DNA of 42,752 nucleotides from Candidatus Yonathbacteria bacterium RIFCSPLOWO2_01_FULL_43_27 (lineage in GTDB: Bacteria > Patescibacteriota > Minisyncoccia > Phycocordibacterales > UBA1550), in NCBI GenBank assembly GCA_001823545.1, contig MHUV01000004.1, forward strand, positions 16,790 through 59,541, read 5' to 3'. Under the pieces are notes generated by a model, which saw nothing but the letters and a program-made list of their open reading frames with translations, was not told the origin of the DNA and searched no databases. Made by a program: the position numbers and the translations under genes. Shown here piece by piece: positions 644 through 16,906 of the stretch. How positions within the stretch are numbered: the stretch's first letter is position 1; each line of letters starts with the position of its first letter.

Positions 644-1213
644 AGGTGCCGAACTCCGCCGTCGATATGAACTCTTGGGCGGAACTAGCCTGTTATCCCC
701 AGAGTAGCTTTTATCCGTTAATCTTCAACCGCGTCTAAAGCGTGTTGTCGGTTCACTATGCTCTGCTTTCGCACCTGCTCGACTCGTACGTCTTACAGTC
801 AAGCCCTCTTTTGCCATTACGCTATCGGCACGGTTTCCATTCGCGCCTAGAGGACCTTAATAGACTCCTCCGTTACTTTTTAGGAGGAGAGCGCCCCACT
901 CAAACTACCTACCAGATACTGTCACCGCACGTTTTTTCCGTACAGATTAGAATATGCCCCGAACAAGAGTGGTATTTCACTGACGGATCCACAGCCCCCG
1001 AAAAGGCTGCTTCAAATCCTCCCACCTATGCTACGCAGGTACAGAACATACTCAATATCAAGCTATAGTAAAGCTTCTGGGGTCTTTTCGTCTAACTGCA
1101 GGTAACCGGCATCTTCACCGGTATTGTATTTTCACCGAGCTGTTTCTCGAGACAGTTTCCCAGTCATTACGCCATTCGTGCACGTCTGAACTTACCAGAC
1201 AAGGAATTACGCT

Positions 1214-1420
1214 CTTCTATTCCTCACAGAAGGACTCTATCTTCATCCGCTCTATATAGAGTTGGGATGCATGGCGTTGGTCTCTCGTTAGCCATGATTG
1301 GATCAACAATACATCGCTGTATTGTAGGTAGCATTTCAATGTGTAATATATTTAACTTGCTTACCACTCACCCTATAATCGTCCCAATCCTTTCGGCACC
1401 AACATATAGTCAGTGCCGAA
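1214..1420 (-). other. Small group I intron in 23S rRNA, insertion after U1931, about 207 nt, no ORF
   Basis: Exon continuity CCTAAGGT|AGCGTAATTCCTTGTC (E. coli CCTAAGGTAGCGAAATTCCTTGTC). The insertion ends in G. It contains TAACGAGAGACC and GATGAAGATAGAGTCC, resembling the group I P7/J8-7 core. 5' hairpin TTCGGCAC...GTGCCGAA, and TTGGGAC can pair with exon GTCCTAA. Confidence 0.8.
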
Positions 1421-2305
1421 ACCTTAGGACAATTATAGTTATTGCCGACATTCACCAGGGCTTACAACGGTCTGCATACGCATCACACAACGCGCGATAA
1501 TAATTATCGTACCCTGTGTGATGCGCATACCGCCACTGTTTGACCTTCTGGCATTGGTCAGGCGTCACCCCATATACATCTTCTTACGAATTAGCATGGA
1601 GCTGTGTTTTTGGTAAACAGTTGCCAGGAAATCTTTCGCTGCGGCCCCTCCTCATTGCTGAGGAAAGGCAAGCCTTATCCCGAAGTTACGGCTGCTTTTT
1701 TGCCGAGTTCCTTGAGAAACAATCACTCGTTCGCCTTAGTCTACTCGACTCGACTACCTGTGTCGGTTTACGGTACGGTTTCTTTTTTGTTATGCTGAGA
1801 AGCTTTTCTCGGAAGACTGCTCTGTCTCATCCCGCGAGGCGAACCTCGCGATTTCTGCTGTACTTGGAGTGGGATTAAACCCAGATTCCCGGATTTACCT
1901 GAGAATCACCCTCATACCACAAACGCAAATCCAATAATGCGCGAAACATACAAATCTTCGTCACTCCATCGCACAAAAAAGAAGTCAGGGAATATTAACC
2001 CTGTGTCCATCGGTTCCGGCTTTCGCCATCACCTTAGGCCCGACTAACCCTTGGCTGATTATCATCGCCAAGGAAACCTTAGTCTTACGGCGTGCGGGGA
2101 TCTCACCCGCATTGTGGTTACTTGTGCCAACATTCTCACTTCTTGACGCTCCAGGGTTGCTCACGCTTCCCCTTCAGTGCAGACAAGAACGCTCTCCTAC
2201 CGCTTTACCATCTCGAAAGACGATAAAACCCTCAGTTTCGGTACTATGCTTAGCCCCGATTATCTGCGGCGCAGAATCTCTTAGTGAGTGAGCTGTTACG
2301 CTTTC

Positions 2306-2337
<32 letters not shown>

Positions 2338-2904
2338 TCACTGTCAATGAAACTCCACCTCCTTAAGTGCACTTAGCATAGATTTAGGGACCTTAACTTG
2401 AGATCTGGGCTTTTTCCCTTTTGACCGACGGAGCTTCGCCCCCGCAGTCTTACTGCCTTGTAATTAATCTCTGGTATTCGGAGTTTGATAGGATTAGCGA
2501 GATTTCTCCCTGTCCAATCCTTCCAGTGCTCTACCCCCAGAGGGTACACAAGACGCTAGTCCAAAAACTATTTCGGAGAGAACCAGCTATTACCAGATTC
2601 GATTAGCTTTTCACTCCTTACCACAAGTCATCCGATGGTGTCGCACGGCCAACCGGTTCGGGCCTCCCTCTTAATTTCTCAAGAGTTCACCCTGCTCATG
2701 GCAAGCTCATCTGGCTTCGGGTCTCATACATACTACAAACGCGCTATTCACACTCGGTTTCCCTACGGCTCCGCCCGAAAAGGGCTTAGCCACGCAATAT
2801 ATATGAACTCGTTGGCTCATTCTTCAATAGGCACGCCGTCACCCCCGAAAGGGCTCCGACTCCTTGTAAGCATATGGTTTCAGTTCTATTTCACTCCCCT
2901 CGCC

Positions 2905-2949
<45 letters not shown>

Positions 2950-3761
2950 TTCTCAGAGTATTTAGCCTTAGGAGTTAGTACTCCTGGATTCCCCCGAGCT
3001 ATTCATGTCTCGAAGTACTCAAGAACAAGAGCAAAAAAGATGTTTAGTTTTCGCTTACCGGGCTATCACCGTCTAGGGCGTTGCTTTCCAGCAACTTCAG
3101 CTAACAAAACATTTTGTAACTTTTCTCGTATAAATACGACGCTCTTGCCTTACAACCCCCCCACCACTCTTGAAACAATATTTTTCAATATTGCGTCAAC
3201 AGTGGTGGGGGTTTGGGCTCTTTCCGTTTCGCTCGCCGCTACTCAGGAAATGTTCTGCCATTCGGCAGCTTTTTTTATTTTCCACCAGGTACTGAGATGT
3301 TTCACTTCCCTGGGTATGCACCTTACTAAGTAAGGTATTGACCTATAAAAGTCAATGAGTTTCCTCATTCAGAGATCTCCGGATCAAAGGTCGCTAGGCA
3401 CCTCCCCGAAGCTTATCGCAGCCATACCACGTCTTTCGTCGCCTCTGAGAACCAAGGCATCCACCATATGCTCTTAATTTCCTGTAAGGAAATTTAAGAA
3501 CCACAATCATTATTTACTTACAACTCCGTCACGTGTGTGACGGAGTCTTCTTTTTTTTACCTGCCTGCCTCTCTACGCCTCAAAGACCCACATTAACGGG
3601 CGTACAGGACAGAATTCAGTTGTCAATTAACAGTCGATGAGGTCTTAACGAAAAAACAAAATCCGCACCAGGCGGACAAAAGAGAGAACCAAAAAGGTCT
3701 TTCTATCCCGCCTGGGAGTGTCTTTTATTGATCTTCGTACTCATATGCAACAATAGAGTGC

Positions 3762-3789
3762 ATTATATACAAAAGAAAAACGATGTCAA
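3762..3789 (-). promoter_or_regulatory. Predicted sigma70-type promoter of the 23S rRNA transcript
   Basis: On the minus strand: TTGACA (3789-3784), 16-nt spacer, TATAAT (3767-3762). Both hexamers match consensus exactly. Confidence 0.8.
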
Positions 3790-3922
3790 CCCCCACACCT
3801 ATCCTCGCATCGCTTTTGTTCTGCCACTTTATAAACAAAGGGTTTTATTTAGTTAACAGTAAAAGATACTTCTTATAAACAAAATTCCAAAAGCAGAACA
3901 ATGCGAGGATAGGTGTGGGGGT
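3789..3922. repeat. 22-bp perfect inverted repeat (arms 3789-3810 and 3901-3922) separated by 90 nt
   Basis: ACCCCCACACCTATCCTCGCAT versus ATGCGAGGATAGGTGTGGGGGT. The left arm overlaps the outer base of the rRNA -35 hexamer. Confidence 0.9.
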
Positions 3923-3983
3923 CAAGCGATATGTGGGGAATGCAAAAAGTTAAGAACCATATGACTAAAAATACCGAGTCTCA

Positions 3984-4023
3984 TCAACAGAAAAACCCGC
4001 CATCTGGCGGGTTTTTCTGTTGA
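3984..4023. terminator. Rho-independent terminator between the mechanosensitive-channel-like CDS and the 23S promoter
   Basis: 19-bp perfect stem TCAACAGAAAAACCCGCCA-TC-TGGCGGGTTTTTCTGTTGA with A/T flanks. Confidence 0.9.
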
Positions 4024-4047
4024 TAAATAAATCCTAAAAAAGACGTA

Positions 4048-4740
4048 TTATCGGCTTGAAATATCTTCTCGAAGCTTTTCAATATAACGTGCTGCTGCAT
4101 CCTTGCCACCGAGACCAAATGAGAGGCCTCCTGCGATTGCAAGCATTGCGACAAGACCTGTCACGAGTGTGCTCAAGATCTGATCTGCAATGTGTAACTG
4201 CATCAACGCTGCGATAATAGCAAAAATCCAAATTGCCCAACGAGCGATACCGCCAACAAGTCCTGAAGATTTTGCATCAACAGCCTTTGCTGCGCCCGAC
4301 ATTACTTTCTGAACAAACTCAGCGAGGATTGCACCTACAATGAGAATGAGTGATGCAATTGCAATGTTTGGAATAAACTGTGTGACTACAGAAGTCAAGA
4401 GCGCATTGATTGCCTGAAGTTGAAATACATCAAGTGCTGCTACAAGAAAACCGATCACCACAAACCAACGTACGATACCACCCAAAAACGCACCTGAGTT
4501 AAGGTTGAAGCCTGCCTTGTTTACCAAATTACGTGCTCCTGCGCTCTCAAGGATGCTATCGATCTTGAGTGTCTTTACAATTTTCTCTACTACTTCACCA
4601 AGGACTGAACCGATTACCCAACCTGCAACAAATATTACAACTGCAAGTACAAATCTTGGGAGAAATCTAATGATTTCAACACCCAAGCCCTGGTTGAAGG
4701 AATTGCTCAAGCTCACTCCCCATTGATTAACTAATTCCAT
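4048..4740 (-). CDS. Mechanosensitive-channel-like membrane protein (conserved TM-helix family)
   Basis: 230 aa with repeated hydrophobic segments and Gly/Ala-rich C-terminal motif AIAGGLSFGLGGKDAAARYIEKLRED, typical of MscS-related TM-helix proteins. Confidence 0.75.
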   Translation of the reverse strand: MELVNQWGVSLSNSFNQGLGVEIIRFLPRFVLAVVIFVAGWVIGSVLGEVVEKIVKTLKIDSILESAGARNLVNKAGFNLNSGAFLGGIVRWFVVIGFLVAALDVFQLQAINALLTSVVTQFIPNIAIASLILIVGAILAEFVQKVMSGAAKAVDAKSSGLVGGIARWAIWIFAIIAALMQLHIADQILSTLVTGLVAMLAIAGGLSFGLGGKDAAARYIEKLREDISSR

Positions 4741-4893
4741 ATTATTTTTATTATCCCCTGCGAATAAATTCGCACAAGGTACTATAAACTATTAAAACCT
4801 AATAAAAGCACGTTACCTAACGTAAGTCCTTAGTACAAGAAACAGAAGAGCGTAAATGCTTCTCGGTTCTCTTACACACAGTACTTACTATTT

Positions 4894-4956
4894 GATCAAC
4901 CCCGTATTTTGTATCTTCCTATGGCCACGGAAGAGACAAAATACGGGGGGTTGATT
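4894..4956 (-). promoter_or_regulatory. Long hairpin at the predicted 5' leader of the mechanosensitive-channel-like gene
   Basis: GATCAACCCCGTATTTTGTATCTTCC / GGAAGAGACAAAATACGGGGGGTTGATT can form a roughly 26-bp imperfect stem. It lies just downstream of an extended -10 (TGGTATAAT; hexamer 4967-4972, minus strand). Confidence 0.55.
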
Positions 4957-4994
4957 CCGTAAAAACATTATACCACCTAGCATATACGGAATGG

Positions 4995-5026
4995 AAGGGG
5001 GGTGTGGATAACTCCACACCCCCCTT
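4995..5026. terminator. Hairpin/terminator-like inverted repeat
   Basis: 14-bp perfect stem AAGGGGGGTGTGGA-TAAC-TCCACACCCCCCTT between two minus-strand genes. Confidence 0.65.
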
Positions 5027-5070
5027 TGGCTCTTTATACGCTCACAAACATGAACTACGTACCATCGCGT

Positions 5071-5688
5071 TTAGATCCTTAATTTATCAACCACGCGATC
5101 GTGTTTAAAATCAAGAACGTCATGTACGAACTTGTCGTAAACACTTACACGGTAAAGGAAATCCGCTGTCTCAAGAGCGCTATATGAAAGTTCCTTTCCT
5201 ATTTCTGACTCAAGGGAGCGAAGCGCCGATTCTAAAGCGCGTTTCTTGACCCCATCCCCCACCACCAAAACATCTACCCGTGAATCTGGTTCATCAATAA
5301 AAACTCCCGCCAAAATAAGGAGTTTAATTTTCCCTACTGAACGAAAACGTTTAATAATCTCATTACGATTAAGTGGCATTTCTGAAAAAATAAGATTTTT
5401 GAGTGGCGCAAGGAGAGAGAAATCTTGCTTGAATTGAAGACCGGTTACTCGTTTTTTTACGATCATTTCCTTTGTTCCTTTTTTAACCAACACTTCTTTT
5501 ATGCATGTCTTTTCACTCAGAAAACCTATTTTCTTCAAAAGAGATATTTCCTTACGCACCTCCACTCCCTTTACTTTGCTTTTTTGAGCCACATCATCAA
5601 CACTAAAAATCTCGAGTGAGTTCGAGAGAAAAAGACGCAAGATTTTTACGCGCGCAGTACTACCAAAAAGTGCTCCTAATGTATCCAT
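5071..5688 (-). CDS. Winged-helix transcriptional regulator-like protein
   Basis: 205 aa. The N-terminus (GSTARVKILRLFLSNSLEIFSVDDVAQKSKVKGVEVRKEISLLKKIGFL) reads as an HTH; the C-terminus (VLVVGDGVKKRALESALRSLESEIGKEL) resembles a nucleotidyltransferase-like domain. Confidence 0.65.
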   Translation of the reverse strand: MDTLGALFGSTARVKILRLFLSNSLEIFSVDDVAQKSKVKGVEVRKEISLLKKIGFLSEKTCIKEVLVKKGTKEMIVKKRVTGLQFKQDFSLLAPLKNLIFSEMPLNRNEIIKRFRSVGKIKLLILAGVFIDEPDSRVDVLVVGDGVKKRALESALRSLESEIGKELSYSALETADFLYRVSVYDKFVHDVLDFKHDRVVDKLRI

Positions 5689-5752
5689 TTTTTTAGTATA
5701 CCACGGCTTTTTAAATATGGAATTGACCGATAGTGTTCAGGGAGCATAAATA

Positions 5753-5781
5753 ACAAGGAGCGCCCTTCTGACGCTCCTTGT
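5753..5781. terminator. Rho-independent terminator
   Basis: ACAAGGAGCG...CGCTCCTTGT between 5071-5688 and the surface-protein gene. Confidence 0.7.
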
Positions 5782-5811
5782 ATTAAATATTACAAAACCT
5801 CACGGTTGAAC

Positions 5812-6753
5812 TTAAAACTGTTGTACTTTCCCCCTACAATCTGAAGGAGCATTGAGCATGGTCTCCCCTGGTTCACAAATACCATTTCCGTTGACTGCAG
5901 CAGGAAGTGGGCAGTAGGTACCAGGATCACAAGTCTGTGTCGCACTACCTGAATACCCGAACCCGCACGTACCGAGCCTTGTACCAGGGATGTCAGTACC
6001 GGGAGAATTCGAAGAACAGAAACCAGCCTGCTCATTACATGAACCCCACGACGTCACATTAGCAATCGTACAAGCAGGGAAATTAACATGTACAATATTT
6101 GAACCTGCAAGCTCTGGAGAAAAATCAACCCACCCAACAACATCTCCACCCCATGCATATGCATTTACATCATTAGAAAACGAACCATTATTCATAATTG
6201 AAACACCATAAGGACTACCATCGGTTGCTGTTCCCGACAATCGTATCCATCCATCCCATCCTCCTGCGGCAGCTCCAGCGTTTGAACTCGCACAAGTAGC
6301 CACAGGAACACCAGGAACTTCTTCACATCCAGAAATTGCGCGCGCCCATCCTGTCACAACACCGGTAGAAGTATTTACCTTTGCGATTGCCCCTACGCCA
6401 CCATTAAATGGAGCGAGAGGTGGGTTATTGGTTGCCGTACGATCAAAGCTAATCCATCCAATATGTTCACTCCACGCCGTCCCAGAAAAATCACCCGTTG
6501 CTGTATCTACATTAACGCCATATGCTGGTGGCGCAGATGCGTCGCTTGTATCATTAAAACTAATCCACCCAATACCAGGATTTGCATCAGCACCACCACT
6601 CCACGCAAAACCAGACACATTCTGCGCCGTAGATGATTCTGCTTTTGGTGCTTTCAAAAAATCAGGATTCGTGCGATACACAAAAATGACGATACCCGTC
6701 AGCACAACGAACATAATAGCTTTATACAAACGATGTAATGTGTGTGGTTTCAT
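5812..6753 (-). CDS. Membrane-anchored or secreted surface protein with GWISF-type repeats
   Basis: 313 aa, N-terminal TM/signal (AIMFVVLTGIVIFVYRT). Repeats AWSGGADANPGIGWISFND, AWSEHIGWISFDRT, GWDGWIRLSGT, AYAWGGDVVGWVDFSP; Cys-rich C-terminus. Confidence 0.8.
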   Translation of the reverse strand: MKPHTLHRLYKAIMFVVLTGIVIFVYRTNPDFLKAPKAESSTAQNVSGFAWSGGADANPGIGWISFNDTSDASAPPAYGVNVDTATGDFSGTAWSEHIGWISFDRTATNNPPLAPFNGGVGAIAKVNTSTGVVTGWARAISGCEEVPGVPVATCASSNAGAAAGGWDGWIRLSGTATDGSPYGVSIMNNGSFSNDVNAYAWGGDVVGWVDFSPELAGSNIVHVNFPACTIANVTSWGSCNEQAGFCSSNSPGTDIPGTRLGTCGFGYSGSATQTCDPGTYCPLPAAVNGNGICEPGETMLNAPSDCRGKVQQF

Positions 6754-6856
6754 AAGTTATTGATAATTATTATATGTAGATAGTATATCATTTATACTAA
6801 ACAAAACTCCAAAAAAAATGTGGTGTGTGGATAACTTAAAAATACTTAACGAAAAA

Positions 6857-6885
6857 AAGGGCCTGAGTGCAATACTCAAGCCCTT
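6857..6885 (-). terminator. Rho-independent terminator after the 125-aa membrane protein gene
   Basis: AAGGGCCTGAGT-GCAAT-ACTCAAGCCCTT stem with one mismatch and an A-tract, i.e. a U-tract on the minus strand. Confidence 0.8.
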
Positions 6886-6901
6886 GTGTATCATTTTTTT
6901 A

Positions 6902-7279
6902 TTAATCTTTCGGAAGGAGTAACTTCCTCCCTTCGATGACCACATAGTCATATCCAGGAGGTGGGAAGCTCTTCTCATTAAAAGTTCTTGTGAACATTAC
7001 CTTGCTATCAGAAAGACTGCGGAACTGATACCTTGTCCGTTCGTTTGATAGCACGGTACTCGAAAGAACTTCACACGAACCCGGGACTGTTCTGGAGTTC
7101 GTCACATCGAAACGTGACCATAGAACGCATACTACAAAAAAAGCTGAGGCGCTTCCTACAAGAAGGCGCACCATAATTCGTTTTCCTTTTTCTGTAACTG
7201 CATCGTATATTCCGATGATAGAGAATAGAACCACGCACGCAAGAAAAAGTACGATATAACCAAACATATCTACCCCCAC
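6902..7279 (-). CDS. Small membrane protein, unknown function
   Basis: 125 aa with two hydrophobic segments near the N-terminus; followed by a terminator. Confidence 0.6.
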   Translation of the reverse strand: MGVDMFGYIVLFLACVVLFSIIGIYDAVTEKGKRIMVRLLVGSASAFFVVCVLWSRFDVTNSRTVPGSCEVLSSTVLSNERTRYQFRSLSDSKVMFTRTFNEKSFPPPGYDYVVIEGRKLLLPKD

Positions 7280-10670: not shown

Positions 10671-11264
10671 TTACAGATGTGTCTCCCTGAGTACATTATT
10701 GACGTCGCGGAGCGCGAGAAGGCGCACGTTTTCAAATGATATAAGGGTATCCTGAGACCATTCTCTATTTTGTACAAAATCTTTATATAACTCAAAATTG
10801 TCGTACCCTAAATGCGAAAGGACACGCATCGTGGCAAGCGTCTCAAACGATGAGTGTAGGAACGATGGAACAATTTCTGATCGTAAAAATTCTGTAATAT
10901 CTGAAAGCTCTTTAAAGAGTATTTTATTTTGCTCTTCCCCGTGCACCAATCGCGCCACGAGCGCACACACGCGCGCAAGTAATACACGATTCTCAGAAAA
11001 AATTCCTCCTTGATGCACAGAATCTTTTTCTTCGGCGATAGCACTTGTAATACGCCACACCTCTCGTCCGTGCACGAGATCGACATTGATCCATGAAAAA
11101 TCTTGGAGGGTGTATCGAAGTTTTGAAGATAACTTCCTCACGGCCTGTGCGGTAGCACCAACAAGCCCGAGCTCTTCGGTAAAAATTCTATAGTATTTAT
11201 TTGATTCACGCGTAGCCACACTGCCGAGTATCAGACCATGGGTGTGATAAATGTGGTGAGCCAT
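10671..11264 (-). CDS. recO: DNA repair protein RecO (short form)
   Basis: 197 aa. HTHGLILGSVATRESNKYYRIFTEELGLVGATAQAVRKLSSKLR matches the RecO N-terminal OB fold; adjacent to the ileS stop. Confidence 0.8.
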   Translation of the reverse strand: MAHHIYHTHGLILGSVATRESNKYYRIFTEELGLVGATAQAVRKLSSKLRYTLQDFSWINVDLVHGREVWRITSAIAEEKDSVHQGGIFSENRVLLARVCALVARLVHGEEQNKILFKELSDITEFLRSEIVPSFLHSSFETLATMRVLSHLGYDNFELYKDFVQNREWSQDTLISFENVRLLALRDVNNVLRETHL

Positions 11265-11267
11265 ATG

Positions 11268-14200
11268 TTATTCACCGAGCACGACGAACAATGTGATGGT
11301 ATCGAATTCTATCTTGCTCACCTGCCCCTCAGGTGATACAAAACCATCTTTTGTTTGTTCTTTTTCAATATCACCAAACGTAACACTGCTCACGTGAGCC
11401 AACTTTTTAAGTTCCTCGGTAAACATTTCAATTAACGCATGGCCGTCTTCGTTCGTCTCTATCTTTAATACGGTCATATCTGAAGGCGTAAGACCTTTTT
11501 GTTTGCGGAGCTCCTGAACCGTACGGACGACATCACGAAACTGTCCCTCTTTTTTAAGCTCAGGAGTAATAACCGTATCGAGGACCACTTCTTCTGCAGA
11601 AGTGTCCACAAAAACAACCTCTTTTACATTTATTTCATCTTTGATCAAATCCTTAAGTCCATTCTGCGAGATATTCTTCTCTGTATTCTTCACCATGAGT
11701 GACGCGAGAGGTTGACGCACTTTCACCCCTGCCTTTGCACGCGCTTCGAGTGCAAGCGAAACAATACGACGAACCTCTGTCATCGATGCCAGAGTTGTCG
11801 TGTCAGGTTTTTCCATTGTTGGCCACACCTCAAGATGCACACTCTCTTTCCCCCCTTGTATGTTCTGATAAAGATGTTCAGCAAGGAATGGCATCACCGG
11901 TGCAAGCAGTTTTGAGAGCTCAAGAAGGACCGTATGAGTTGTTTGTGACGCGAGCAAACGGTCGGCCTGATCATCAGACTTAAATCGGTCGCGCGAGCGA
12001 CGAAGGTACCACGTGGAAAGATCATCAACAAAACTTCCAATAGGCTTCACCGCACGATCAAGCTCGTACGCATCAAGGGAGGTGGTCATTTCATTCCCTA
12101 ACTCAGAGAGACGCGCAAGAATCCACTGATCTAAAATATTATCACTTTCGTTTACTTTTTTAAGAGAAGTCTGCGTTCCTTCTCCGTGTAACTGATAAAA
12201 TGAAAGAACATTCAACAAACGCATTGTTATTTTTTTCACCACTTCATCGACACCCTTTTCTGAAAACGAAAGGTCCTCCGCACGAACTACCGGCGATGAA
12301 AGAAGGTAGTAGCGCATCGCATCTGCACCATAACGATCAACAATGTACTGTGGGTCAGGATAATTCTTGAGGCGTTTTGACATTTTTTGTCCGTCTTCTG
12401 CAAGGACCATCCCGTTAACCACCACATTCTTAAATGGCGCCTTCCCAAAAAGACCTACGGACAAATTGAGCATATTATAAAACCATCCCCGTGTCTGATC
12501 TACACCCTCACCAATAAAATCTGCAGGAAAATTTTTCTCAAAAAGTTCCTTGTTCTCGAACGGATAATGAAACTGTGCAAACGGCATTGACCCTGATTCG
12601 AACCAGCAGTCAAACACGTACGGCACGCGCACCATAGGATGCCCTTTCGCGCACAGCACGGGAACTTCATCGATAGCAGGGCGATGCGTATCAAATTCAT
12701 AATCATCATTATGAGGAAACGGCGTAAATGAAAGTTCACGTACTTCTCCCGGTACCATAAAATCCTCTCTCCCTTTTTTAAGCTCAAGAAGATGTGGTGT
12801 TGCTACGCCAAGCGTACCAGCCGTAAGCATCCATGTAGGATACTCGTGGGTAACAATAAGAATTGTTGTATTGCAGTAAGTTCTTTCTAATTCCTCAAGA
12901 AACGCCATTGTTCTACGCTTAACATCGAGAAGGTTTTCACCTCCCTCGGGGCGCTTTGTTATTTTTTCTTCAAGCGAAGAAAAATGTTCATGATAGACAT
13001 CAATAGATTTGCCATCAAAAACACCCGTATCAATTTCTTTGAGGCGTTCGTCGAAAATTATTTTGTCAGCATCGTACCCTATCGTTTTTGCAACAAGCTC
13101 TGCCGTTTGCTTGGTGCGTAAAAAAGGTGAGGAAAATATGAGCTCGACAGGCTTCTTTGCAAGTTGTTCACTTGTTTCCGTCACAGCCTTAACACCGTTT
13201 GACGTAAGACCAAACGGCGCATTCGTTGCAAGTTTTGAACTTACAATTCCCTGTACATTACTTTCTGCCTCTCCGTGGCGCATTACTAAATATGTATTTC
13301 CCGATCTTTTTGTTCTTTCAGCGAGTTCAGCGCGTGATCCGGCGACAAAACGTTCGTCACATGTCGTACACTGCCACACCGGAAGCGGTGCACCCCAAAA
13401 ACGCGAGCGAGAGATCGCCCAATCGCGCGCGCCTTCGAGCCACCTTCCGAAACGTCCATCGCGCATATTGGCAGGCACCCATGTTGTTTTTGCATTTTCA
13501 GAAATAAGTCGCTCTTTCAAGTCAACAACTTTTACAAACCATGACTCTGCCGCATAGTTAAGAAGTGGCGTATCACAACGCCAACAATGTGGATATGAAT
13601 GAATAATCTTTTCTTTTGAAAAGAGTGCGCCAATACCTGCGAGGTGTTTGATGATAAGGATATCTGTTGCTTGATGTCCATCTTTTTCTTTTGCTTTTGG
13701 TTTTGCCGGTACACCCACAAAATCACGGACCTCGGGTTTCATCAACCCATCCATTCCGACATGTTGCACGAACGGAAGTTGTTCCTTCTTGCCCAGCGCC
13801 ATGTCATCTTCTCCAAAGGCTGGCGCAATATGCACCACGCCGGTACCACTCGCCATCGTAACAAATGGAGCGCCATAGATTTTCCATCCATTCTGATGAT
13901 TTTGAAGTGCCGTATTTTTTGCGTAGTAGTCAAACATAGGACGGTACGATTTCCCCACAAGTTCACTCCCTTTGAATTCACTCACGATTGTGTACGCTAT
14001 TTCTTTGAAGACGTGTGACAAACGTTCACGTGCCAAAATGTAATGTCCCCCTTCGGTAGAAATTTTTACATACGTTTCGTCAGAGTTTATCGCGAGTGCA
14101 ACATTTCCAGGAAGCGTCCACGGTGTCGTTGTCCACGCAAGCACGTACGTCCCTGGCTCATCCACAAGTTCAAACTTCACCGTCACTGAAATATCGGTGA

Positions 14201-14801
14201 TATCTTTGTATCCGTCAGCAACCTCATTATTAGAAAGTGTTGTTTCGCATCGAGGACAAATCTGCATTGCTTTGAAGCCTTGATAGATGAGTCCCTTTTC
14301 GTACAGCGTTTTGAATGCCCACCAAATCGATTCGGTATACGAAGCATCCATCGTTTTATACGAGTGTTCCATATCGATCCATCGTCCAATACGAGGAATT
14401 ATTTTTTTCCATTCTGCATCATAGCGAAGCACTGATGCACGCGCAGCTTCATTAAACTTGTCGATACCGTATGCTTCAATATCTTTTTTATGTCCGAGAC
14501 CAAGCTCTCCTTCGATGAGGTTTTCAATAGGAAGTCCGTGACAATCCCACCCCCACACGCGTCGCACGAAACGCCCCCGCATTGTTTGATAGCGCGGGAT
14601 TACGTCCTTGATCGTACTGGCGAGAATATGTCCGTAGTGAGGTACCCCTGTTGCAAAGGGAGGTCCATCATTAAACGAAAAATGTTCCCCATTTTTAGTC
14701 TGTTCAAGTGTTTTTTCAAAAATCTGTTTCTCACGCCAAAAAGCAAGGGTCGCCTCCTCGCGCTCCGCAATTTCTGATAGTTTTTTCTCTGTTTCGTCCA
14801 T
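11268..14801 (-). CDS. ileS: Isoleucyl-tRNA synthetase (eukaryote-like/type 2) with an embedded histidine-phosphatase domain
   Basis: 1177 aa. DGPPFATGVPHYGHILASTIKD (HIGH region), editing-domain AWTTTPWTLPGNVALAIN and GTGVVHIAPAFGEDD, and KMSKRLKNYPDP (KMSKS). Insertion YLVMRHGEAESN...SSPFLRTKQTAELVA...ERLKEIDTG...ILIVTHEYPTW at about aa 501-695. Confidence 0.95.
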   Translation of the reverse strand: MDETEKKLSEIAEREEATLAFWREKQIFEKTLEQTKNGEHFSFNDGPPFATGVPHYGHILASTIKDVIPRYQTMRGRFVRRVWGWDCHGLPIENLIEGELGLGHKKDIEAYGIDKFNEAARASVLRYDAEWKKIIPRIGRWIDMEHSYKTMDASYTESIWWAFKTLYEKGLIYQGFKAMQICPRCETTLSNNEVADGYKDITDISVTVKFELVDEPGTYVLAWTTTPWTLPGNVALAINSDETYVKISTEGGHYILARERLSHVFKEIAYTIVSEFKGSELVGKSYRPMFDYYAKNTALQNHQNGWKIYGAPFVTMASGTGVVHIAPAFGEDDMALGKKEQLPFVQHVGMDGLMKPEVRDFVGVPAKPKAKEKDGHQATDILIIKHLAGIGALFSKEKIIHSYPHCWRCDTPLLNYAAESWFVKVVDLKERLISENAKTTWVPANMRDGRFGRWLEGARDWAISRSRFWGAPLPVWQCTTCDERFVAGSRAELAERTKRSGNTYLVMRHGEAESNVQGIVSSKLATNAPFGLTSNGVKAVTETSEQLAKKPVELIFSSPFLRTKQTAELVAKTIGYDADKIIFDERLKEIDTGVFDGKSIDVYHEHFSSLEEKITKRPEGGENLLDVKRRTMAFLEELERTYCNTTILIVTHEYPTWMLTAGTLGVATPHLLELKKGREDFMVPGEVRELSFTPFPHNDDYEFDTHRPAIDEVPVLCAKGHPMVRVPYVFDCWFESGSMPFAQFHYPFENKELFEKNFPADFIGEGVDQTRGWFYNMLNLSVGLFGKAPFKNVVVNGMVLAEDGQKMSKRLKNYPDPQYIVDRYGADAMRYYLLSSPVVRAEDLSFSEKGVDEVVKKITMRLLNVLSFYQLHGEGTQTSLKKVNESDNILDQWILARLSELGNEMTTSLDAYELDRAVKPIGSFVDDLSTWYLRRSRDRFKSDDQADRLLASQTTHTVLLELSKLLAPVMPFLAEHLYQNIQGGKESVHLEVWPTMEKPDTTTLASMTEVRRIVSLALEARAKAGVKVRQPLASLMVKNTEKNISQNGLKDLIKDEINVKEVVFVDTSAEEVVLDTVITPELKKEGQFRDVVRTVQELRKQKGLTPSDMTVLKIETNEDGHALIEMFTEELKKLAHVSSVTFGDIEKEQTKDGFVSPEGQVSKIEFDTITLFVVLGE

Positions 14802-14929: not shown

Positions 14930-15448
14930 ATGCCAATCGAGATCATTGCCGCCGTCGCAGACGGTGGCGCAATTGGACATAAAGGAAGGATGCCATGGGA
15001 CCGCATACCGCGCGACCTAACACACTTCAAAGAGATCACCATGGGTCAAACGATTGTGATGGGATATACCACGCTCGTTTCCATCGGCAGAGAACTATCC
15101 GGAAGGAACGTACTCGCACTTACCCGTGATCCGAGCAAACTCGCGTCATTCCCTTGGTGTAAGGCAACGACCAAGGATGTCATTCTCGAGATGGCAAAGA
15201 CTGAACGCATCATCATTGCTGGCGGAGAGGCTACATATTTAGAATTCCTCCGCTACGCGACGATTGCACACATTACGAGGATCAGAAAGTACTTTGCAGG
15301 AGATACGTATTTCCCGGAGCTCCCTCTCTCGGAGTGGCATCTTGAGTCTTCGCAGTTTTGGGACAAGGGGGACAAAAACCCATACCCAATAGAATTCGAA
15401 ACATGGTTCAGAAGAAGGAATCTTCATGAAGAGAACGCTACTATTTAA
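14930..15448 (+). CDS. folA: Dihydrofolate reductase
   Basis: 172 aa. IIAAVADGGAIGHKGRMPWDRIPRDLTHFKEITMGQTIVMGYTTLVSIGR and IIIAGGEATYLEFL motifs; SD GAGGAGG. Confidence 0.92.
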   Translation: MPIEIIAAVADGGAIGHKGRMPWDRIPRDLTHFKEITMGQTIVMGYTTLVSIGRELSGRNVLALTRDPSKLASFPWCKATTKDVILEMAKTERIIIAGGEATYLEFLRYATIAHITRIRKYFAGDTYFPELPLSEWHLESSQFWDKGDKNPYPIEFETWFRRRNLHEENATI

Positions 15449-15460
15449 GGGAGGCTTTAT

Positions 15461-16381
15461 ATGGGACACGAACCGAAAGACGTCATAGCGTATCTTCCTC
15501 TCGAAAAAAGGGTCGTCGATACGCAGTACCACGATCTTCTCCGTCAGATATACGAGGACGGAGAGACCGTTCGTCCGATTCATGGAGGAGAATCGCGTAT
15601 GATAGCCGGAGCTCAGATGCGCTTTACTATGGCAAATGGCTTTCCAGTCATCACCGAGCGCGACCTCTCCGGCAACCTTTTCTACGGCGCGCTCGCCGAG
15701 CACATTGCATTCCTTCACGGAGCGCATACGCTTGAGGAGCTTCGCGCGTGGGGAGTAAACGATTGCTGGTGGGCACCATGGGTAACCAAGGAAAAATGTG
15801 AGTTTTTTGGACTCCGCGAAGGAGAACTGGGAAGTGCTTCCTATGGAGAAGCCTGGACCAGATTCCCTATCCGAGACGGTGGTACCTTTAATCAGATCAC
15901 CGCGGTCATTGACCAGATCAAGCGTATGCCCTTCTTGCGGACCCACCGCATCACAAGCTGGTACCCACCCGAGATCATCGGACCGCCAGGAACACGCAGA
16001 GTCGTCGTAGCACCTTGCCACGGTGACATCTATATCAACATGTTCCCCGAGAAAAAAGAGCTTATCATCCACCACGTACAGCGGAGTGGCGACCTGCCCG
16101 TCGGCGTTGCCTTCAACCTCGTTCAGTACGCGGCCTTCGGTATGATGCTCGCCAAGATCCTCGAATACACGTTTACAGAGCTCGTGTACACCTTCAACGA
16201 CGTGCACCTCTACGAAATGCAGTACCCGCACGTCGAAGAACTCCTTGCGCGAGAGCCGTTCCCGTTTCCAACAGTAACGCTGTCCAAAGACGCGGATGAC
16301 ATTATGGCATTTCGTCCAAGAGATTTCACTCTCAAGGACTACGTGTCACATCCAAAAATGACCATTCCGACGCCGATCTAA
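15461..16381 (+). CDS. thyA: Thymidylate synthase (divergent ThyA)
   Basis: 306 aa. VVAPCH active-site Cys, VQRSGDLPVGVAFNLVQYA and NDVHLYEMQ motifs; SD AGGGAGG; 12 nt after folA. Confidence 0.92.
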   Translation: MGHEPKDVIAYLPLEKRVVDTQYHDLLRQIYEDGETVRPIHGGESRMIAGAQMRFTMANGFPVITERDLSGNLFYGALAEHIAFLHGAHTLEELRAWGVNDCWWAPWVTKEKCEFFGLREGELGSASYGEAWTRFPIRDGGTFNQITAVIDQIKRMPFLRTHRITSWYPPEIIGPPGTRRVVVAPCHGDIYINMFPEKKELIIHHVQRSGDLPVGVAFNLVQYAAFGMMLAKILEYTFTELVYTFNDVHLYEMQYPHVEELLAREPFPFPTVTLSKDADDIMAFRPRDFTLKDYVSHPKMTIPTPI

Positions 16382-16392
16382 TCAGTATCACC

Positions 16393-16424
16393 AAACCCCC
16401 GCCTTCCCGAAGGCGGGGGTTTTT
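16393..16424 (+). terminator. Rho-independent terminator after thyA
   Basis: AAACCCCCGCCTT-CCCG-AAGGCGGGGGTTTTT. Confidence 0.9.
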
Positions 16425-16438
16425 GCTACGATACCCTA

Positions 16439-16906
16439 ATGAAACCCACCGTAAACATCGCTCATACGCGAAATAAAAAAAATGTATACGAAAAAATCGT
16501 GAGGGATAAGGTGTGTCCGTTTTGTGTCGACTTTTCTAAAAAACAAAAAATTTTCCAATATCACTCAAAACCTATTCTTTTCCATGGTACACACTGGGTG
16601 GTAACAGAGAACTTTGATCCTTACGAAGGAACAAAACATCACTTCATGTTCATTCACCGAAAGCACATTGTTTCTTTTTCGGAAATAAAACCTTTGGCTT
16701 TACAGGAACTCGTGCTTCTCACAAAAAAACTCGAGAAGAAATTTTCATTACCAGCAGGGGTGTTCCTTTTCCGTTTTGGTGATACGAGATACACAGGCGG
16801 TAGTGTGAACCACTTTCACGGACACTTCGTCCTCGGCGACAAGGGAGCAAAAGGAACGAGCGAGCCACTCACACTCTTCGCGGGGTACAAAAAAGCCGGC
16901 AAATAA
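16439..16906 (+). CDS. HIT-family nucleotide hydrolase/transferase
   Basis: 155 aa. CPFC near the N-terminus and the histidine triad VNHFHGHFVLG. Confidence 0.82.
   Translation: MKPTVNIAHTRNKKNVYEKIVRDKVCPFCVDFSKKQKIFQYHSKPILFHGTHWVVTENFDPYEGTKHHFMFIHRKHIVSFSEIKPLALQELVLLTKKLEKKFSLPAGVFLFRFGDTRYTGGSVNHFHGHFVLGDKGAKGTSEPLTLFAGYKKAGK

Follow-up and report, generated by a model that had tools for sequence, protein, structure and literature searches.

Inserted domains in synthetases and joined histidine phosphatases

The nearest precedent for the gene described here is found in cyanobacteria, where the CAAD domain, a membrane anchor, has been recruited repeatedly into class I aminoacyl-tRNA synthetases (PMC4893482). 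As is apparently the case for the present enzymes, the foreign domain occurs repeatedly and independently at internal sites of class I monomeric synthetases, including ValRS and IleRS, and stand-alone homologues as well as one case of neighbouring genes are reported there (PMC4893482). Removal of CAAD from ValRS barely affects catalysis (PMC4893482), whereas the domain considered here is soluble, has an intact active site and sits in the second zinc-knuckle loop. A membrane-anchoring helical domain of the CAAD type was not found in the insert carried by the window (the whole stretch of 42,752 nucleotides analysed), which instead has the fold of a soluble histidine phosphatase (HP). No description of an IleRS with an HP was found in a literature search of open-licence papers.

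Two other kinds of system are comparable in part. The family ileS_w_GNAT (NCBIfam NF040702) also carries an enzyme domain inside IleRS, but that enzyme is an N-acetyltransferase rather than an HP; the window protein scores 323 bits against this model (cut-off 1999) and contains no GNAT family by Pfam. In RNase H/acid phosphatase (PRK07238) and in MutT1, a branch-1 HP is joined to a nucleic-acid or nucleotide enzyme. These are end-to-end fusions, whereas the present HP is inserted inside a catalytic domain. The nearest solved structures of the HP itself are the PhoE, PspA and CobC enzymes (PDB 1h2e, 4ij5, 6nru), which share its catalytic set but are stand-alone proteins and not embedded in a synthetase. 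The window HP falls below the equivalog cut-offs for PspA (68 versus 350 bits) and CobC (72 versus 163), so the resemblance is one of fold and motif only.

An isoleucyl-tRNA synthetase with an embedded histidine phosphatase

The ileS gene of the window occupies positions 11268..14801 on the minus strand, and consists of a single uninterrupted open reading frame encoding 1177 amino acids. It is directly followed by recO (10671..11264, minus strand, PF11967). The product scores 864 bits against the NCBIfam model for ileS (TIGR00392, cut-off 621). Pfam finds a split tRNA-synt_1 domain, His_Phos_1 at aa 505-671 and Anticodon_1 at aa 891-1032. The first class I signature (HIGH motif) reads HYGH at aa 55-58 (14628..14639, minus strand). 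The second had been described as a retained KMSKS; the signature is indeed kept, but reads KMSKR at aa 806-810 (12372..12386, minus strand). An AlphaFold model of the whole protein, run with 40 related sequences, has a mean pLDDT of 88, and its top PDB matches are IleRS structures with TM-scores (target) of 0.77-0.92 among the best twelve. The best match to the IleRS body is the mupirocin-resistant type 2 enzyme of Priestia megaterium. The equivalog score, both class I signatures, the anticodon-binding domain and the fold thus all place the protein among the isoleucyl-tRNA synthetases, and it is an intact type-2-like IleRS. Because the other matches to the IleRS search listed for this genome are weak and of a ValRS-like kind, the sequence evidence suggests that the protein is the sole IleRS of the genome and hence a working enzyme. 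Its IleRS part would then perform the usual charging job.

The inserted stretch, as delimited by alignment with insert-bearing and insert-less IleRS, covers approximately aa 496-703 (12693..13316, minus strand). It lies in the loop of the second zinc knuckle, between the halves C478-x2-C481 (13359..13370) and C717-x3-H721 (12639..12653, both minus strand), to which we assign a zinc-binding role on the assumption that IleRS structures apply here. In the IleRS of insert-less relatives this loop holds just a short link, for example ...GSTKELGVKLKDLHRPYID in L144. The third-position GC content (GC3) of the HP segment (12702-13310) is 0.32, below that of the rest of ileS (0.41-0.43).

Within the insert, PF00300 (His_Phos_1) matches aa 505-671 (12789..13289, minus strand) with 105.4 bits against a cut-off of 21.7 (E 4.1e-30). 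The RHG motif comprises R508, H509, the expected phospho-acceptor, and G510 (13272..13280). The second catalytic arginine is R562 (13116..13118), the catalytic acid E589 (13035..13037) and the second catalytic histidine H652 (12846..12848), all on the minus strand. All of the embedded IleRS HPs of the window type (104/104) retain R508, H509, R562, E589 and H652, although the set is strongly diverged, with mostly 30-60% identity to the window's domain. In the tandem HP copies of family f77, the catalytic residues are likewise intact (12/12 and 10/10). For pairs without saturated synonymous sites, dN/dS of the HP is 0.04-0.13 and resembles that of the IleRS body. Modelled alone, the domain reaches a pLDDT of 95.4 and a pTM of 0.92, and matches Hydrogenobacter thermophilus phosphoserine phosphatase, Bacillus stearothermophilus PhoE and Rv2419c with E-values of 1e-11 to 1e-14. 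Profile score, catalytic set and fold agree in assigning the insert to branch 1 of PF00300, and judging from its sequence the embedded HP is apparently active.

These results bear out most of the original prediction, which had placed an HP domain inside IleRS at 12717-13301 (aa 501-695) with the synthetase in frame throughout. The coordinates are right and all of the HP motifs quoted are present. The proposed addition of a catalytic-type module to an essential, otherwise intact IleRS agrees with the TIGR00392 score, the Pfam domains and the fold model. The domain search proposed for the 1177-aa protein recovers His_Phos_1, and both parts are modelled confidently, with a pLDDT of 88 over the full length and of 95 when the HP is modelled by itself. 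The accompanying suggestion, that the module couples removal of phosphate or sensing of a metabolite to Ile charging, describes a possible role.

Distribution and repeated recruitment

Searching 287 Patescibacteria genomes with the IleRS recovered numerous relatives, many of them alignable across the insert and many others lacking it. A profile built from 29 embedded HP domains finds embedded HPs in >40 of these genomes. A pattern-limited scan of GTDB genomes yields at least 76 patescibacterial loci, each with the HP inside a long open reading frame; among the names in the matches listed are Yonath-, Nomura-, Campbell-, Zambryski-, Adler-, Lloyd-, Taylor-, Kaiser- and Jorgensenbacteria. A census sampled 55 genomes of the window's class: 38 carry an HP in IleRS, and in 21 the IleRS-borne copy is the sole HP found. 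HPs in open reading frames longer than 800 aa number 39 in this census, 38 of them in IleRS and one in ValRS. The insert is clade-wide. No HP at all was found in nine of the 55 genomes and the IleRS of some further genomes of the class lacks the insert, so HP function is dispensable in some lineages. HP domains also occur in shorter frames of 437-486 aa, in G176, G216, G225 and G276 (family f55) and at G132:C2:10748 (L242).

HP insertion is not limited to a single HP in a single synthetase, and goes further than had been guessed. IleRS of family f77 carry two tandem HPs in the same loop as the window protein. A 1572-aa IleRS (L154, genome G243, 1167-5882) has three HP domains at three different sites, and another (L148, genome G046, 2638-6990) combines a GNAT acetyltransferase domain with an HP near the anticodon domain. 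ValRS with one or two HPs are present in seven genomes (G223, G044, G191, G003, G046, G229 and G327). Further hydrolases accompany the HP in some enzymes: an IleRS (L163, genome G281) also contains NUDIX and serine hydrolase domains, and a ValRS (L150, genome G229) HAD and serine hydrolase domains. In the HP tree, whose deep branches are weakly supported, the f77 and ValRS copies fall apart from the window type. Because of this separation, several independent insertions of HP into IleRS and ValRS of Patescibacteria are likely.

Separate histories of the phosphatase and its host

The HP tree unites the domains of the window's order in a single clade (support 87/88) and those of family f60 in another (99/98). 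With wider sampling, the HP of G290, from the same class, joins the clade of the window's order (98/90). The corresponding IleRS cores are split between different core types in the core tree, for the window's order and for f60 alike, and constraining either set of cores to one clade is rejected (AU test, p 8e-50 and 4e-56). Across core types in f60, identity of the N-terminal core drops from 71-78% to 50-55%, while that of the HP stays at 41-53%. The proposition that the HP follows core type is rejected at p 2e-4, for groups that were picked after seeing the trees. A narrower constraint, uniting the HPs of L010, L012, L013 and L015 in one clade, is not rejected (p 0.07, groups again picked post hoc). 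A recombination breakpoint inside the IleRS core was considered and discarded: trees of the N-terminal and C-terminal halves place both main core types alike, and the conflict is therefore between HP and core. The IleRS cores fall into at least two types, which match neither GTDB families nor the window's order.

These trees show that the HP and the IleRS core have evolved separately, and point to frequent exchange of ileS in Patescibacteria. Either ileS would have been replaced around the HP, or an HP cassette would have moved between ileS genes.

HP genes also occur unfused at the same locus. Embedded relatives widely retain the gene order argS-ileS-recO, of which the window retains ileS-recO (tblastn of flanks). 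In at least four genomes (G274, G299, G321 and G318) argS and an insert-less ileS flank a stand-alone HP gene, which in three of these overlaps ileS or is a few bases away from it. These HPs, and one located elsewhere in G174, are intermixed with embedded HPs in the tree, and their union as a single clade is rejected (p 0.02). This arrangement suggests that the HP entered or left ileS at a single locus. Where the stand-alone copies nest within embedded ones, movement out of ileS is the simpler reading. Since the unfused HP genes adjoin ileS, a covalent link between HP and IleRS, or channelling within one protein, is not strictly required. More tentatively, the phosphatase may be a stable resident at the ileS locus, foreign ileS genes having been adopted around it by recombination, or with the HP moved out as a gene next door. 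On the other side of ileS in the window and divergent from it, genes for dihydrofolate reductase and thymidylate synthase and a weak HIT-domain match occur in a row (14930-16906, plus strand).

Possible functions of the embedded phosphatase

The explanation we favour, with a probability of roughly 0.55, is that the HP is an active small-molecule phosphomonoesterase, similar to PhoE and PspA, that rides on an interchangeable synthetase and whose benefit is tied to aminoacylation. It would act via a phosphohistidine on H509 and strip a small soluble substrate of its terminal phosphate. The synthetase would be an interchangeable carrier through which the phosphatase is expressed, and its amount set, in step with charging. 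The benefit would be connected with aminoacylation by the isoleucyl and valyl, and perhaps arginyl, synthetases, because the recruitments seen are in IleRS and ValRS and the unfused HP lies between argS and ileS. Small phosphorylated metabolites are the substrates of the nearest enzymes that have been characterised, which makes a small soluble compound the best guess here. However, the HP is only ~22-28% identical to the PhoE, PspA and CobC structures (~26-28% for PspA and PhoE), which is too distant to name the substrate.

A possible but rather doubtful alternative is that the HP clears a nucleotide by-product of aminoacylation, such as AMP, where it arises, or helps other inserted hydrolases to remove adenylates that are toxic or faulty, such as Ap4A and adenylate-type inhibitors. 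Recruitment is repeated in IleRS and ValRS, both of them editing synthetases that produce much AMP, and the additional GNAT, NUDIX, HAD and serine hydrolase domains inserted in these synthetases are suggestive only. Mycobacterial MutT1 also pairs NUDIX with HP; its substrates include diadenosine polyphosphates and 8-oxo-dGTP, but its HP motif was dispensable for the activities tested (PMC11784022). Adenylates and Ap4A would also be poor substrates, because HP enzymes need a terminal phosphate. Moreover, no HP was seen in LeuRS or in AMP-producing synthetases other than IleRS and ValRS, and the HP persists in unfused form.

A regulatory role, in which the HP would control charging by dephosphorylating proteins or tRNA (for example IleRS itself, a translation factor or the damaged end of a tRNA), is unlikely. 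There is a precedent in the SixA-like enzymes of the superfamily, whose substrates are phosphohistidine proteins, and fixation of the HP to a synthetase would suit such a role. However, its sequence and fold are nearer to the small-molecule enzymes PspA and PhoE than to SixA.

Still less probable is a passenger that brings no catalytic benefit, hitchhiking in a tolerant loop or only propping the zinc knuckle. The loop does tolerate inserts, and the knuckle cysteines are lost in some hosts (L007, L008 and L010). However, the complete catalytic sets of all 104 diverged domains, together with the purifying selection seen as low dN/dS, disfavour a dead or merely structural domain, and the HP gene is kept beside ileS where ileS itself lacks the insert.

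That the embedded HP is the cell's phosphoglycerate mutase is very improbable. Among the NCBIfam HP models, dPGM_arch (NF038349) scores highest with the window's domain, and the genome encodes enolase with no PF01676 mutase found, but the score of 86 bits is far under the cut-off of 225. The same genome also has two further HPs, one of which may be its mutase. As a general role, mutase activity is rejected by the distribution of its companions, because many genomes in which the IleRS-borne copy is the only HP encode a PF01676 enzyme (e.g. G043, G061, G089 and G103) or lack enolase (e.g. G290, G309, G311 and G330). Finally, although nearly all source genomes are metagenome-assembled, an assembly or binning artefact, including the chimera against which the original prediction had advised a check, is refuted by the occurrence of the same architecture at >100 loci in independent assemblies, with uninterrupted frames, shared boundaries and low dN/dS.

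Significance

Insertions in synthetases are already known, but a complete and conserved enzyme within the catalytic module of an essential IleRS is unusual, as is an HP that has apparently been recruited several times and evolves apart from its host. The result is a testable case of a two-function synthetase in very small genomes, often accompanied by no other HP that could be found. The embedded, adjacent and absent states of the HP provide a natural experiment on the use of physical linkage between enzymes. Because the HP is kept even where the surrounding IleRS has been swapped, its retention points to a real job. If the phosphatase is indeed a resident of the ileS locus, this would represent a previously unrecognised phosphatase step linked to the charging of branched-chain amino acids.
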